DNA of 43,179 nucleotides from a virus (IMGVR_UViG_3300030333_002897:1-43179); one strand, 5' to 3'; shown: positions 1,835-15,216, counted from the first letter of the stretch. The notes: generated by a model not told the origin, from the sequence alone. A program made the numbers and translations.

Positions 1835-2407
1835 ATGACTATTATTTTGGAAGGACCAGATAACGCAGGGAAGACCACACTGGGCAAGAAGCTGGCCAAG
1901 AAGTTTAACCTGGTGTTGAAGCACTCTATTCGTCCAGACAAGTCCCTGGTCGCTCATGAGATATTGAAGCACAGCAGGGATCAACTGCTACCTAGCCGGG
2001 TTATCCAAGATCGAGTCTACGCTATCTCAGAATATGTGTATGGCACTATCATCAGGGGGAAGACTGCCCTGGGTCCTTTCCACGCTCAGGCACTCCGCGA
2101 CCTGTACTCCAGGGATCACCTGATCATCTACTGCCGACCCTCCATGAAAACCATCTTGAACAACCGGGGAAGGGATCAGATGGAGGGGGTTCTGGATCAT
2201 CACGAAGCTATTGTTAATGAATACGATGAGGTGATGGTAGATATCAACCGGTATTCCAACAACGGGGTTATCAGTTATGACTGGGAGGTCATGCCATTTG
2301 ATTACATCGCTGAGAGGGTAGCTGCTCACCTTTCAATGGTGGATTCTCGAGAGAGCAGCATCCAATACCTAATGGAGTTTAAGCATGCAGAACCACAAGA
2401 GAGTTGA
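1835..2407 (+). CDS. Deoxynucleoside monophosphate kinase, thymidylate-kinase-like
   Basis: P-loop kinase of 190 residues, predicted to phosphorylate a deoxynucleoside monophosphate. Walker A is GPDNAGKT with K13 and T14; a DR motif (DRVYAISEYVYG) matches the thymidylate kinase DRx region, and a basic lid-like stretch NNRGRDQ follows. An open frame extends upstream to 1778, but ATG 1835 is chosen because GAGGAG lies nine bases before it and the upstream gene stops at 1833. It overlaps the next gene by 23 bases. In T4 the dNMP kinase accepts hydroxymethyl-dCMP; a similar role for a modified base is possible here because of the neighbouring thymidylate-synthase-fold genes, but the sequence does not show the substrate. 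Confidence 0.75.
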   Translation: MTIILEGPDNAGKTTLGKKLAKKFNLVLKHSIRPDKSLVAHEILKHSRDQLLPSRVIQDRVYAISEYVYGTIIRGKTALGPFHAQALRDLYSRDHLIIYCRPSMKTILNNRGRDQMEGVLDHHEAIVNEYDEVMVDINRYSNNGVISYDWEVMPFDYIAERVAAHLSMVDSRESSIQYLMEFKHAEPQES

Positions 2408-2837
2408 AGATTTCAATAAACTGGTACTAGGTATCGAGCCCCGTGACCTGGGCATGATGAGCCCTGATGAGTTCCGGCTGTCGATGACACAACTCAGGGA
2501 GGAGATCAGGGAAATCGAGGAAGCCTATGAAAAGGGTAACCTGGTAGGTGTGGTAGATGGCCTGATTGATTTGGACTATTTCCACAAGGGGGTTATCTAC
2601 AAGCATGGGATCAACTACGCGATCTACAACATGCTGTTCGGACAGGTCCACGAGTGCAACATGACCAAGAAGAAAGGGGTTAAGGAATCCCGCCAGGGTT
2701 TCGGTAATGCAGCTGATGCTATTAAGCCACAGGGATGGGTACCGCCCGAAACCAAAATATATGAGACACTGAAGGCCGTAGCTTATGACCACCCTGACAT
2801 CTCTTCCATTGGCCTTATCCCTCCAGATAAGGATTGA
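2385..2837 (+). CDS. MazG/PRA-PH-like nucleotide pyrophosphohydrolase
   Basis: All-alpha NTP pyrophosphohydrolase-like protein of 150 residues that would hydrolyse a (d)NTP to the monophosphate. The expected metal-binding pattern is present: REEIREIEEAYEKG (acidic EExxE helix) followed by VDGLIDLDYF (DxxD-type helix), then the conserved FGQVHECNMTKK segment typical of phage phosphoribosyl-ATP pyrophosphohydrolase-like proteins. ATG 2385 has GGAG seven bases upstream. It sits in the nucleotide-metabolism run between the kinase and the TS-fold genes. T4 dCTPase (gp56) belongs to this broad superfamily, so a dCTPase or dUTPase role is plausible; the substrate cannot be read from sequence. A second, unrelated-looking MazG-type gene lies at 41061-41444. 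Confidence 0.7.
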   Translation: MQNHKRVEDFNKLVLGIEPRDLGMMSPDEFRLSMTQLREEIREIEEAYEKGNLVGVVDGLIDLDYFHKGVIYKHGINYAIYNMLFGQVHECNMTKKKGVKESRQGFGNAADAIKPQGWVPPETKIYETLKAVAYDHPDISSIGLIPPDKD

Positions 2838-3009
2838 GGTAATCGACGAGCAGATAATACTGTTCGAAGGGTACATCAAGAAGATGCCGGTTCATAGGGA
2901 GTATTATGAATCGGTCATCATCCACCTGGATGCTATGAAGGATGGGCTCCTCCATAAGCTGAAACAAATAGAAGCCCAACAGGAGTCACAATGCAACACA
3001 CTGAACTAG
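2785..3009 (+). CDS. Small helical protein of unknown function
   Basis: Not recognised. The longest frame gives 74 residues from ATG 2785, which would overlap the previous gene by 53 bases. The first 16 residues look like out-of-frame translation of that gene, so translation may start later, for example at the TTG at 2809. From about base 2830 the product is a single charged helix-rich chain (IDEQIILFEGYIKKMP, then YYESVIIHLDAMKDGLLHKLKQIEAQQ), compatible with a short coiled coil. It overlaps the next gene by 19 bases, consistent with translational coupling. No function is suggested. Confidence 0.5.
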   Translation: MTTLTSLPLALSLQIRIEVIDEQIILFEGYIKKMPVHREYYESVIIHLDAMKDGLLHKLKQIEAQQESQCNTLN

Positions 3010-3773
3010 AGCTAGAGTGGGCTGAGTTCGTAAAGAAGTTGGCCTGCACTAAGCCTGAGGCCTATGTCCAGATCAGGAAGGTATTTCGTGATGTGACCTG
3101 GGAAGTTCCATTCGATAAATTCGACGGGGTATCACTGAAGCCTGAGAGCCTGGGGTATGCTCCAGGGGACAGCAAAATGCGACAGCTGAAAAGAAACTAC
3201 CTGTCAGTAGAAGAACTGGAGAAAGCCAGGGATTCCCTAATTGAAAGGCAGTCTAAGCAGCAGTCATCTATAACGGCCCGGTTCGGTAATATGGCTAAGG
3301 ACTCCAGGTCACAGGGGTTCTGCATGCAAACCATCACACTGAGCCACATCAGTAAGCCAGAACCAGGACACCCCCAGTTTGTAGTGGAGCTTTACTATCG
3401 CAGCACTGAGGTTGGCCAGAAGTTCTTTGCTGATCTGGCCTTTCTGGATGAAGTGATCTTCCCCATCCTGCTGGAAGGATTACCCAAACCTGATGTGATC
3501 CGGTTTAAGTTTTCTACCCTGTATCTCAGCTCTATGTTTTTACCTATCTTCTTCCAAGTGGTTAATACCAGGGAGACGATGGAATCCATCCAGAAGTTCG
3601 ACAACAAATGGTACACCCGTTGTGTCAGGGTAGCAGTCGAGAAATGGATGGTGGAAGAATGTGGGTATAATTACAGGACCAGGGCTAAGATGCATGACCT
3701 CTTCAGGAAGTACGTCTTTCCCAACCTGAGTAAATCAGATATCAAACGCATTAAGGAGATCACAAAGAAATGA
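2991..3773 (+). CDS. Probable divergent thymidylate-synthase-fold protein
   Basis: 260 residues, not closely recognised, but the middle looks like a diverged relative of the next gene. The stretch YYRSTEVGQKFFAD (R137 to D148) can be laid without gaps on the RSCD...Asn/Asp motif of thymidylate synthases, with D148 at the residue that selects uracil or cytosine in that family. A Cys (C111, GFCMQTITLS) precedes it by 26 residues. FKFSTLYLSSMF resembles the family's terminal beta segment, but the usual HxY pair is missing, so it may be inactive or a partner subunit. ATG 2991 follows AGGAG. It overlaps the next gene by 4 bases (ATGA), implying coupled translation. Remote similarity only. Confidence 0.45.
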   Translation: MQHTELELEWAEFVKKLACTKPEAYVQIRKVFRDVTWEVPFDKFDGVSLKPESLGYAPGDSKMRQLKRNYLSVEELEKARDSLIERQSKQQSSITARFGNMAKDSRSQGFCMQTITLSHISKPEPGHPQFVVELYYRSTEVGQKFFADLAFLDEVIFPILLEGLPKPDVIRFKFSTLYLSSMFLPIFFQVVNTRETMESIQKFDNKWYTRCVRVAVEKWMVEECGYNYRTRAKMHDLFRKYVFPNLSKSDIKRIKEITKK

Positions 3774-4609
3774 GCCACTTCCAAGATGTTAGTCAGGCCG
3801 TCGGGGTTATCCAGGCCACAATGAGGGATGCTGGTCAACTGGTTCACACTGAGCGTTGGCAATCCTGGGATATTAAAGACCGGCCGGAGGCCCAGATGGT
3901 TGAGGTACTCCACCAGTCCTTCTCCTGTCCCATACCAGGACTTGAACCCAAAGAAATGGCCAGCCGGATCGGGGCCAATATGCCCTGGGCTGAGGATCAC
4001 TTCCAGGAGAGAGTCTGTGGATTCCCCCTGAACCCTGGGAAAGAGTGGAGGAACTGGCCCTGGGGTGGTCACGCAGATAAGCATCGTGATGGGGAACTGT
4101 TCAACCACAACTACATGGAACGGTACTGGCCCAAGTGTGCTGGGTACACGATGCAGCCTACTGAGGACCCTGAGGACTTTATCAATAAGAACCCGGCCAC
4201 TGTCCCTATCAGGAATGGCATCAGGGCCCGCTACGGTGACCTACAGGACGTGATCGATCTGCTAGCTGATGAACCCCTCACCCGTCAGGCTTACCTGCCT
4301 GTATGGTTCCCTGAGGACACTGGGGCTCAGAACACTGGCCGGAAACCCTGTACCCTGGGATACCACTTCATCATGAGGAACGGGAAGCTCGACATAGTCT
4401 ACTACATCCGGAGCTGTGATCTGTTCCGACACTTTCATGATGATGTGTTCCTGACCATGAGGTTGGCCCAATGGGTACTGGACCAATGCTTCATGAAGAA
4501 TCACGAGGTGTGGGGTAAGGTGAAGCTAGGAAATATGCACATGCATATAACCAGCCTCCACATGTTTATCAACGATTATGTGGTCATGTTTAAAAGGAGA
4601 CCCCGGTGA
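3770..4609 (+). CDS. Thymidylate-synthase-family enzyme, possible dCMP/dUMP C5-(hydroxy)methylase
   Basis: 279 residues with clear thymidylate synthase features: VIDLLADEPLTRQAYLPVW (phosphate-binding Arg region), nucleophile C194 in RKPCTLGYHF, R214-S215-C216-D217 in the RSxD motif, and a terminal SLHMF (H264-x-F266) where the family has HxY. D225 occupies the position of E. coli ThyA Asn177, eleven residues after the RS Arg. Asp here is known from T4 dCMP hydroxymethylase, and the Asn-to-Asp change shifts thymidylate synthase toward dCMP. The enzyme may therefore act on dCMP rather than dUMP. Its N-terminal 110 residues have no clear ThyA counterpart. It overlaps both neighbours by 4 bases in a nucleotide-enzyme operon. 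The family is confident; the substrate is inference. Confidence 0.75.
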   Translation: MSHFQDVSQAVGVIQATMRDAGQLVHTERWQSWDIKDRPEAQMVEVLHQSFSCPIPGLEPKEMASRIGANMPWAEDHFQERVCGFPLNPGKEWRNWPWGGHADKHRDGELFNHNYMERYWPKCAGYTMQPTEDPEDFINKNPATVPIRNGIRARYGDLQDVIDLLADEPLTRQAYLPVWFPEDTGAQNTGRKPCTLGYHFIMRNGKLDIVYYIRSCDLFRHFHDDVFLTMRLAQWVLDQCFMKNHEVWGKVKLGNMHMHITSLHMFINDYVVMFKRRPR

Positions 4610-5076
4610 GAATCTCACGAGATCAGATGCTACTACTCTGGGCTCACGTTGCAGCTGCCAGGGGAACTTGTAACAGGCTTAAGGTGGGAGCTGTTATCAG
4701 CTTTGAATCAAGGCCTGTTTCGGCAGGGTATAATGGGGCTCCTCCTGGGAAGCCTCATTGTGACAGCAGCTGCAATGAATCCAAGCCTTGCACTAATACT
4801 ATCCACGCAGAGGAGAATGCTATCAAGTGGGCCAGGACTTTTGGGATCGATCCAAAAGGATCTACCATCTACCTGACAGATAGTCCCTGCAATGCCTGCG
4901 CTGAACTAATCATCGATGCTGGTATATCCCGAGTTGTTTTTGATAGAATGTACCGGGATCAAAGACCTGTAGCTAAACTGCATAACCATGGTGTGGAGGT
5001 AGAGCAATGTCCAGTCAACCCTGTGATAAGTGTGATCTTGCACAATTTGCTAACCATACTTGCATCGGCGGAGTAG
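4606..5076 (+). CDS. dCMP deaminase
   Basis: Zinc-dependent deoxycytidylate deaminase of 156 residues converting dCMP to dUMP. The zinc and proton-shuttle motifs are H67-A68-E69 (HAEENA) and C95-x-x-C98 (SPCNAC), with the N-terminal RLKVGAVI segment and GYNGAPPG substrate-binding region. Extra H51, C52, C56 and C62 resemble the second zinc site of phage dCMP deaminases. It starts at GTG 4606, overlapping the preceding TGA, with AGGAG seven bases upstream. The last 70 bases overlap the polymerase gene. It would supply dUMP, or act on a modified dCMP, next to the TS-fold enzyme. Confidence 0.9.
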   Translation: MRISRDQMLLLWAHVAAARGTCNRLKVGAVISFESRPVSAGYNGAPPGKPHCDSSCNESKPCTNTIHAEENAIKWARTFGIDPKGSTIYLTDSPCNACAELIIDAGISRVVFDRMYRDQRPVAKLHNHGVEVEQCPVNPVISVILHNLLTILASAE

Positions 5077-7547
5077 GTAACAAAAAAGCAAAGATAATGA
5101 TAGTGGGGGATAACCCTAACTACTTCGAAGATAACAAGGGGGAGTATGGCCATGGGAATCCCCATAAGCTGCTCCTTGATTTGTTGCATGCCTCAGGGAT
5201 AGAATACGAAGACTGCTACTACACCCCCGCGGTTAAATGTCGTAAAGGGGAAAAGGGTAAGGTCTCTGCCACACAACTCAAGGAGTGTAAGACTTATCTC
5301 CAAGCTGAGCTGGAAAGGGTCCAACCCGAGTGGGTTATCACGATGGGTTCAACTGCCCTGAAGGCACTCACCAATAAAGCTAAGATCACGGAGATACACG
5401 GAAACCCTATCGATCACAAGATGGGGTTCACTGTCCTACCTACATTCCACCCATCCATGTCCCTCCGTGATCCCCGATTCTGGGATAGGATCAACACTGA
5501 CTTCCGACGGTTTGGTAAGATCATCAACGGGGAACCCCTGACACAACACAAACTAAACCTCACCCGAGTACTCACGACAGGGGCGCTACAGGAAGTTATA
5601 CGGGCCATTAAGAAATCCAAAGTAGTGGCATTCGACCTGGAAACTACCGGCCTGGAAATGCGACTCAGAACGTCAGGGATAGGTCAAACGGTCATAGCCA
5701 CATTTCGACAGGAATTTGTTATTGATCACGAGTGCTTCACTCAGTGGGAGATGGAGAAATTCCATCACCGGGTCTGCCGTCTACTGAAGGGTAAAACAGT
5801 CCTGGCTCAGAATGGCAAATTCGATAACCTGTGGCTCTATTATATGTATGGGGTCAGGTTCCCACTCACCTTCGATACCATGCTAGCCTCCCATCTCCTG
5901 GATGAGAATTCACCCAACGGGCTTAAAACCAATGCTAGAACCATCCTGGACATGGAGGACTGGGAAGTTAGCGTTGATATTAAGAAGGGGATAGTGGAAC
6001 CCAAGAAGGTTCAGATAGCCGATGCTAAAAGGGAGCTGAGGGCTCAGGGTTTAAAGGGGGCTATGTTGGATGATGCCCTGGAGCAGTGGATCAAGGAAAA
6101 AATCCAGGAGAACAAACAGAGACGAGCTGAGTACGCAGCATGGGATGGATACGCCACAGTTAGACTGTACAAGCATTTCAAAAGACAGCTGGCTGAGGAC
6201 CCCGACTTGGAGAACCTGTTCTATCGGATGGTAATGCCAGTAGCCAGGGCTTATGAGCAGGTAGAAATAAACGGGGTACATGTTGACCTGGAGAGAATGC
6301 GGGAAAACGAGAAGGTACTTATTCGACGTATCCGCCGTATCTCTAAATCACTTAACCGAATGGCCAAGCCCTATGTGGACACGGCCACTATGAATTGGAA
6401 TTCGGCTAAGGATGTAAACCACCTGCTGTTCGATAAGATGAACCTGGTTCCTGCTGGGCTGACGGATAAGGGAGCTCCATCCACAGCAGAGGACAACCTG
6501 GTCAAAATGAAAGATCAGCACAGGGTTGTTTCAAAGCTATTGGAATACCGAGGAGCATTTAAGCAGTGGTCAGGGTTTATCGAGGGTTGGAAGAAACGGA
6601 TGATCGACGGGAAGCTATACCCCTCGTATAAGATCGCCGGTACAGTGACAGGTAGACCCTCCTGCTCAAACCCTAATCTACAACAGGTTCCCCGAGACCC
6701 CTTCATCAGGAGCCTTATCGGTGCCCCTGAGGGCTATGTATTCTTCGAGGTAGATTACTCCCAGGTAGAGCTCCGTGTGGCTGCTGTAGTGGCTAACGAA
6801 CCCACCATGCTCCAGATATTCCGGACGGGGGGTGACATACACGAAGCCACATACCAGATGGTGATGGGAATAAGCACTGAGGAAGCAGTAGCTCACATCA
6901 CTGACCCAGCCGAAAAGAAAACCCAGCTCAAGGAGGAACGTAAGAAAGCTAAGGCGATTAACTTCGGGTTTATCTACGGGATGGGTTGGAAGAAGTTCAG
7001 GGAATACGCCGAAGCCAAATACGGTCTGGTAGTAAATGATCACGAGGCTAAGGCAATGCGGAAGCGATTCTTCGAGACTTATCCTGGTCTGGTCGAGTGG
7101 CACAAACGGCAGCGTAGGATCGTCAGGAATATGGGAGAGGTCAGGACATTCACCGGACGGGTCAGACACCTTCCACAAATTGATTCTCCTGACCAGGGTC
7201 TCGCGGCTGAAGCTGAACGGAACGCTATCAACTCCCCTGTTCAGGGATTCGGGGCTGAGATGATTCTGATGTCCCTGGTGGAGGTTAACGAGTACTTCCA
7301 AAATGATATAGTGAAGCTGGGGGGAACAATCCACGATGCTATGGTTGGGATAGTCAAGAAGGAATACGCACTCGAGGCTATGTCCAGGATTAAGACCATC
7401 ATGGAATCCCCGAGAATCATGAAAGAGTTCGGGATTGAATTACCCCTACCAATCATCGCAGATGTGACTCTAGGTAACTGGGGGGTAGGTAAGGAATACG
7501 ATCCTGAAGAACTCCCTGAACCACTGGAGCTAAAACATGCCGCGTAA
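5007..7547 (+). CDS. Uracil-DNA-glycosylase domain fused to DNA polymerase I (3'-5' exonuclease and polymerase)
   Basis: 846-residue replicative polymerase with an unusual N-terminus. Residues 1-190 resemble Fe-S family 4/5 uracil-DNA glycosylases: C6 and C9 plus two later cysteines (KCR, KEC) for the cluster, GDNPNYFED at the catalytic motif, and TFHPS near the end. Residues about 200-390 are a DnaQ-like exonuclease: D210/E212 in FDLETTG, N269 and D273, and Y376-x3-D380. The polymerase part has motif A EVDYSQVELR (D583), a motif B-like KAKAINFGFIYG, and motif C IHDAM (H776, D777), with Ala where most family A enzymes have Glu. No 5'-3' exonuclease domain is present. GGAGGT precedes ATG 5007. 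Whether the glycosylase domain is active or only recognises uracil is unknown. Confidence 0.92.
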   Translation: MSSQPCDKCDLAQFANHTCIGGVGNKKAKIMIVGDNPNYFEDNKGEYGHGNPHKLLLDLLHASGIEYEDCYYTPAVKCRKGEKGKVSATQLKECKTYLQAELERVQPEWVITMGSTALKALTNKAKITEIHGNPIDHKMGFTVLPTFHPSMSLRDPRFWDRINTDFRRFGKIINGEPLTQHKLNLTRVLTTGALQEVIRAIKKSKVVAFDLETTGLEMRLRTSGIGQTVIATFRQEFVIDHECFTQWEMEKFHHRVCRLLKGKTVLAQNGKFDNLWLYYMYGVRFPLTFDTMLASHLLDENSPNGLKTNARTILDMEDWEVSVDIKKGIVEPKKVQIADAKRELRAQGLKGAMLDDALEQWIKEKIQENKQRRAEYAAWDGYATVRLYKHFKRQLAEDPDLENLFYRMVMPVARAYEQVEINGVHVDLERMRENEKVLIRRIRRISKSLNRMAKPYVDTATMNWNSAKDVNHLLFDKMNLVPAGLTDKGAPSTAEDNLVKMKDQHRVVSKLLEYRGAFKQWSGFIEGWKKRMIDGKLYPSYKIAGTVTGRPSCSNPNLQQVPRDPFIRSLIGAPEGYVFFEVDYSQVELRVAAVVANEPTMLQIFRTGGDIHEATYQMVMGISTEEAVAHITDPAEKKTQLKEERKKAKAINFGFIYGMGWKKFREYAEAKYGLVVNDHEAKAMRKRFFETYPGLVEWHKRQRRIVRNMGEVRTFTGRVRHLPQIDSPDQGLAAEAERNAINSPVQGFGAEMILMSLVEVNEYFQNDIVKLGGTIHDAMVGIVKKEYALEAMSRIKTIMESPRIMKEFGIELPLPIIADVTLGNWGVGKEYDPEELPEPLELKHAA

Positions 7548-14823: not shown

Positions 14824-15216
14824 ATGACCCGAATAAACGTAGTACCTGAAGACACTCTTACCAACAAGCATCTCTCTGGCGAGTTCCATGAAATCAGCCG
14901 GGTCTTCAACCTGGTTCGTAAAGCCATCGCCAGGGATACCCCCGTAGTCATTCCTAAGTATTATCTCCTGGGCCGGGGTCACGTCACATTCTTCTACGAC
15001 AAGCTGGGGTATATCTCTGAGCGATACCTCCGTCTCGGCCTGGAGCTTTCCTATCGAGCTTATTCCTCTGGTAGGGTCAGCAGTGTTAACATCGCTCAGG
15101 TTCTGAATCTTATCGAGCAAGCACGTAACGATATACCTGATGTCTGGTGGGGGGAATACACGCCCACACAACATGCTATCGATATTAACCGGAAACGTCT
15201 GAGGGAAAGGTCATGA
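14824..15216 (+). CDS. denV: Pyrimidine dimer DNA glycosylase/AP lyase, T4 endonuclease V (DenV) homologue
   Basis: 130-residue UV-damage repair enzyme that cleaves the 5' glycosyl bond of cyclobutane pyrimidine dimers and nicks the abasic site. The key residues of T4 endonuclease V are present: T2 (amino-terminal nucleophile after Met removal), R3, H16, E23 and R26, with the hallmark LGRGHVTFFYDKLGYI. T4's protein is 138 residues. GGAGGT lies six bases upstream of ATG 14824. It has its own candidate promoter. The C-terminus lacks the aromatic WYKYYG end of T4 DenV and ends RLRERS. Confidence 0.93.
   Translation: MTRINVVPEDTLTNKHLSGEFHEISRVFNLVRKAIARDTPVVIPKYYLLGRGHVTFFYDKLGYISERYLRLGLELSYRAYSSGRVSSVNIAQVLNLIEQARNDIPDVWWGEYTPTQHAIDINRKRLRERS

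Follow-up and report, generated by a model that had tools for sequence, protein, structure and literature searches.

The closest described relatives of the cassette considered here are members of the thymidylate synthase (TS) superfamily that act on cytosine nucleotides. In phage T4 the deoxycytidine monophosphate (dCMP) hydroxymethylase gp42 goes together with the dCTPase gp56, the deoxynucleoside monophosphate (dNMP) kinase gp1 and a dCMP deaminase; Asp179 of the hydroxymethylase is essential, while its Glu60, Trp82, Asp171, Arg177 and Tyr218 touch the folate (PMC6400193). RB69-like phages make arabinosyl-hydroxy-C (PMC13390438), and RB69 ORF048c, a single enzyme within a sugar-modifying cluster, is almost identical to AfhB (PDB 9iqc/9iqu), a dCMP hydroxylase dependent on riboflavin or flavin adenine dinucleotide that yields 5-hydroxy-dCMP. 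In MetaGPA, environmental phage DNA was selected for resistance to cytosine deamination, and the modified contigs were associated with a TS domain bearing Asp177 (and a change at 147), with PRA-PH and with dCMP deaminase domains; the same report states that Asp in place of Asn at position 177 shifts the substrate of TS from deoxyuridine monophosphate (dUMP) to dCMP (PMC8670742). We describe here how a cassette at positions 1835-5076 of the virus record IMGVR_UViG_3300030333_002897:1-43179 (43,179 bases, the whole of which we call the window) compares with these systems.

The cassette follows the gene-set logic of T4, with a kinase, a pyrophosphohydrolase and a dCMP deaminase, and it holds two different TS-fold enzymes side by side, termed A and B, where T4 has a single one. 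A reading of the locus made from its sequence only had called the set T4-like and proposed a C5-modified pyrimidine. The likeness to T4 extends to the gene-set logic but not to the enzymes, as A belongs to another clade than the T4 enzymes, with residues other than the expected ones aligned at Glu58, Gly173 and Tyr209 (Glu60, Gly173 and Tyr218 in T4), and B has no counterpart in T4. The proposal of a modified pyrimidine is well supported and can be narrowed to cytosine rather than thymine, because Asp177 is present in all homologues of A and of B, and Thr or Ser at 147 in A. That the DNA of this phage carries cytosine modified at C5 appears probable to us, and the cassette most likely serves to mark cytosines so that bacterial restriction enzymes are evaded. 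The strongest outside support comes by analogy, from the fact that the domain combination and residues of the MetaGPA contigs recur in the window; they were linked to modified cytosine there by experiment, in contigs with or without a carbamoyltransferase.

Active sites of proteins A and B

Protein A (3770-4609, + strand; PF00303, 30.1 bits for a cut-off of 24.3) displays C194, T195, R214, D217, D225, H264 and F266. It was compared with ThyA, whose numbering is used for positions such as 146, 177 and 207, with the dUMP hydroxymethylases of SPO1 and ViI, with 21 T4-type enzymes and with 16 RB69-type hydroxylases. Its AlphaFold2 (AF2) model, built like that of B on alignments of locus sequences only, has a predicted local distance difference test score (pLDDT) of 91.1, and is matched best by the CMP hydroxymethylase MilA (Z 19.3), then by 9iqc (Z 18.5). 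C194, R214 and D225, which occupy the positions of Cys146, Arg166 and Asn177 in ThyA, are found in 49 of 49 homologues, and this set, together with the TS fold, is that of a cytosine-type member of the superfamily; the sequence-only reading had rightly placed D225 at the TS asparagine. While Cys146, Arg166, Tyr94 and His207 are retained in A and in all the groups compared, the Asp at 177 is that of T4-type and RB69-type enzymes, and the Asn by which ThyA selects dUMP is absent from every A homologue. Position 147 is Thr or Ser, as in T4 gp42 and RB69 ORF048c, where the SPO1 and ViI enzymes have Asn; position 127, in contrast, is Gln, as in the latter two. The protein ends 15 residues beyond H264, and the ThyA segment 220-264, with the tail that closes the active site, has no counterpart, again as in T4 gp42.

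The cofactor pocket is of a mixed nature, with T4-like and RB69-like features. All 49 homologues have W80, Y94, D169 and H207, and A accordingly holds equivalents not only of the catalytic Cys, Arg and Asp of gp42 (C148 and D179 among them) but also of its Trp82, Tyr96 and Asp171, along with Thr147. Asp169 is common to A and the folate users, whereas the RB69 type has Asn there and lacks Trp80; the position of T4 Arg177, which contacts the folate glutamate, is Arg in 34 of the 49. When this set is placed against the folate-contact residues of the T4 enzyme, the cofactor of A is therefore not settled by sequence. In the tree, A forms a separate clade (98/99) and the T4-type enzymes another (99/98).

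Protein B (2991-3773, + strand) matches no Pfam family, and that it has a TS fold, as had been proposed, is confirmed by its AF2 model (mean pLDDT 95.1, from 50 homologues) and a fold search. Its best matches all belong to the superfamily and are nearly tied: 9iqu (Z 13.6), 9iqc (13.3), MilA (13.1) and TS (about 12), the RB69-type synthase being its nearest known fold. Among 49 homologues, most of them only 13-36% identical to the B of the window, nothing is invariant save Y70, C111, R137 and D148. The last three align with ThyA C146, R166 and N177 and pair with C194, R214 and D225 in a comparison of the A and B profiles (E 0.0017), while Y70 is probably the counterpart of Tyr94, judging from residue order and from the helix that follows. 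Because these invariant residues are the catalytic set of TS, with the cytosine-selecting Asp that is present in 49 of 49 homologues of A and of B alike, B looks catalytic and cytosine-specific. Against the PDB its profile reached 9iqu/9iqc at E 1.2, a value insignificant by itself, with the register correct; phmmer gave bL20 matches only, which we judged spurious. We also considered whether Arg172/Gln173 of A might supply the phosphate-binding arginines of B, which has Gly-Ser at Arg126-Arg127 in the AfhB alignment, but a conserved Arg86 lies close by and we make no such claim. Some loci hold an extra B-like paralogue up- or downstream of A (L066:6385-7991, L084:7257-7805, L090:6768-7316, L004:7441-7986, L052:9784-10527 and L027:9413-9982), and the copies checked, both full-length ones and short ones of about 182 residues, retain the counterparts of Y70, C111, R137 and D148.

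Conservation of the cassette

The association of these genes is more than chance, and synteny can be counted, with the gene set, the folds and the active-site residues, among what is established here. In 63 loci flanked on each side by 3.5 kb of context, homologues lying within 7.5 kb of A were found for the TMK-like kinase in 59, the pyrophosphohydrolase in 43, the dCMP deaminase in 62 and the family A DNA polymerase (PolA) in 62. B is present in 82 of 90 A loci, a set that includes near-duplicates and the window itself, and as the contig breaks off just upstream of A in five of the remaining eight, it accompanies A in 82 of 85 informative loci (L003, L063 and L079 are without it); in L006 and L025 it is located elsewhere. 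Conversely, A is present in each of the 18 phage records that contain B, and single-sequence scans with B returned ten loci, of which the only new one, L199, has A adjoining B. The same gene order recurs in named phages of Yersinia, Pseudomonas, Brevundimonas, Gordonia, Mycobacterium and Streptomyces, across proteobacterial and actinobacterial hosts (Pseudomonas PMBT14, Gordonia GTE2 and Mycobacterium Muddy, for example), and a genome scan with A yielded just six contigs, from metagenome-assembled genomes and possibly phage. In two loci (L024:3939-5849 and L028:5968-7696) about 2 kb separate B from A and contain an open reading frame (ORF) with IYHGNCADGF near its N-terminus, which looks like a DHH phosphoesterase.

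ThyX matches stand alongside A in 17 of 50 related records (15 of them above the cut-off), and the ThyX-bearing ones show no PF00303 protein besides A; A is therefore not needed for thymidine monophosphate (dTMP) in those records. ThyX-like proteins in the records of L020, L021, L034, L041, L051 and L080 have low scores and match PF02511 over its C-terminal two thirds only, possibly as a divergent ThyX subgroup.

A proposed route to modified cytosine, and its rivals

We can understand the cassette as a pre-replicative pathway that would replace the dCMP of the phage by a C5-modified form. The pyrophosphohydrolase would hydrolyse dCTP to dCMP, the catalytic Cys of A (and of B) would attack C6, and Asp225 in A or Asp148 in B would hold and protonate the cytosine ring, after which C5 would receive its substituent; for this A would most likely use methylene-tetrahydrofolate and water, with 5-hydroxymethyl-dCMP as the product. 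Rephosphorylation would then begin with the TMK-like kinase, a host kinase would complete the triphosphate and PolA would incorporate the modified nucleotide, while the dCMP deaminase would divert part of the dCMP towards dUMP and dTMP. B would be a second catalytic enzyme of the cytosine type depending on A, either as a partner subunit or as the catalyst of a further step on that nucleotide. What we infer are the substrates, the cofactor, the product, the order in which the steps occur and the role of B, and we lean towards the scheme as a whole. A bolder form, in which A and B make an obligatory pair (either two enzymes that act in turn through a cytosine C6 adduct, or one heteromeric enzyme of the TS superfamily) that yields a C5-substituted dCMP undescribed in DNA, with B as a new catalytic family distributed among phages of both Proteobacteria and actinobacteria, seems doubtful to us.

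Several observations weigh against the favoured scheme. The residue of A aligned with Glu58, which activates methylene-tetrahydrofolate in folate-using members, is N70 (42 Asn, 6 Asp and 1 Glu), in an N-terminal alignment that is ambiguous and where D/E75 or the invariant E80 may substitute for this glutamate (Glu60 in T4). A has His for Gly173 and, in 48 of 49 homologues, Phe for Tyr209, and the folate step is uncertain because this Phe209 is also found in the RB69 hydroxylase. The A profile scores equally against the RB69 type (39.7 bits) and the T4 type (39.1 bits). The carbamoyltransferase, the tailoring enzyme characterised in MetaGPA, was found in none of the 50 related records, and in the literature searched we found no restriction or virion-nucleoside data for this phage or for its relatives P744, Serbin, PMBT14, GTE2 and Muddy.

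It is mostly the nature of the product that is at stake. Where hydroxymethyl- or methyl-pyrimidine had been expected, we prefer 5-hydroxymethyl, since A retains Asp169 and Trp80 and resembles MilA, yet this product in particular is close to an even call. MilA likewise hydroxymethylates a cytosine nucleotide, but it prefers ribo-CMP, has Ala at 167 where A has Ser in 45 of 49 homologues, and serves antibiotic biosynthesis where A is proposed to act for phage DNA. A live alternative that the earlier expectation did not include is that 5-hydroxy-dCMP enters the DNA, sugar-bearing or not, A, B or both then being flavin-dependent hydroxylases of the RB69 kind; it is the main rival because both proteins show RB69-like features. 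In fold and profile comparisons B matches that hydroxylase family best, although its Z-scores to hydroxylase, MilA and TS lie within about one unit; A shares with it Asp177, Thr147, Phe209 and Asp/Glu at 212, and groups with it weakly in the tree (86/40). Yet of the two residues that mark the RB69 type, Asn169 and Phe209, only the second is found in A, 169 being Asp in 49 of 49, Trp80 is kept where the hydroxylases have lost it, and no sugar-transfer gene was recognised among the window ORFs scanned, so that this alternative, as we weigh it, is unlikely.

A could also be a dCMP methyltransferase like that of XP12, in which case the DNA would carry 5-methylcytosine: TS changed from Asn177 to Asp forms 5-methyl-dCMP in vitro (work cited in PMC8670742), as XP12 does in nature (PMC8670742 and PMC5175136). 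In TS, however, a C-terminal tail seals the site for hydride transfer; A lacks it, as does the T4 hydroxymethylase, and this option is very improbable. Hardly better placed is an ordinary supply of nucleotides, with A as the thymidylate synthase that databases annotate, B as an inactive paralogue and unmodified DNA. The kinase and the dCMP deaminase would fit plain dTMP supply equally well, but the invariant Asp177, the absent tail and the lost Tyr209 of A, the ThyX found alongside it in 17 of 50 records, and a catalytic set as the only invariant residues of B all speak against this reading.

As far as could be searched, the pairing of A with B is undescribed; that search did not extend to most subscription-journal papers and preprints (two on the biosynthesis of 5-hydroxycytosine among them), and a second TS-fold protein goes unmentioned for the MetaGPA contigs in the accessible part of that report. 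If the scheme is true, modified cytosine would be common in phages whose DNA is usually taken as ordinary, among them phages of laboratory and therapeutic use (Muddy and the Gordonia Emalynvirus group, for instance). This would bear on work with restriction, CRISPR and nanopores, and with B the TS superfamily would gain an enzyme family that is so far unannotated.

The other genes of the window

All five cassette genes are encoded on the + strand, with short overlaps, and the coordinates and functions that the sequence-only reading had given to this operon are correct. The TMK-like dNMP kinase (1835-2407) matches phrog_761 thymidylate kinase (E 6e-23) and, below the cut-off, Pfam Thymidylate_kin, with the P-loop GPDNAGKTT; we propose that it phosphorylates modified dCMP and other dNMPs. 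The PRA-PH/MazG-like all-alpha nucleotide pyrophosphohydrolase (2385-2837, + strand; PF01503 PRA-PH, 25.5 bits for a cut-off of 21.3) is proposed to be a dCTPase, and the gene in the equivalent position of Gordonia GTE2 is annotated as a dCTP pyrophosphatase. Between it and B lies a small ORF of doubtful status (2785-3009, + strand), without a family match and with homologues near A in only three of the loci examined. The dCMP deaminase (4606-5076, + strand) matches PF00383 (E 1e-19) and phrog_174 (E 8e-46) and shows the zinc motifs HAE and PCNAC. In agreement with the sequence-only reading, neither a glucosyltransferase nor any other glycosyltransferase was recognised among the scanned ORFs of the window, which is another difference from T4, and the window yielded no recognisable tailoring enzyme.

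Downstream of the deaminase come PolA, a PD-(D/E)XK exonuclease and a Sak4-like protein. PolA (5007-7547, + strand; PF00476, E 7e-76) is fused to an N-terminal domain of the uracil-DNA-glycosylase superfamily (PF03167, E 9e-24), which precedes the exonuclease and polymerase domains. More generally, the + strand carries the replication genes over roughly the first 16 kb, and the structural genes are on the - strand. At 127-1833 a RepB-type primase domain is fused to an AAA_25 ATPase domain, in a gene whose start may fall outside the window, and at 14824-15213 there is a pyrimidine-dimer glycosylase like T4 endonuclease V (PF03013, phrog_1183).

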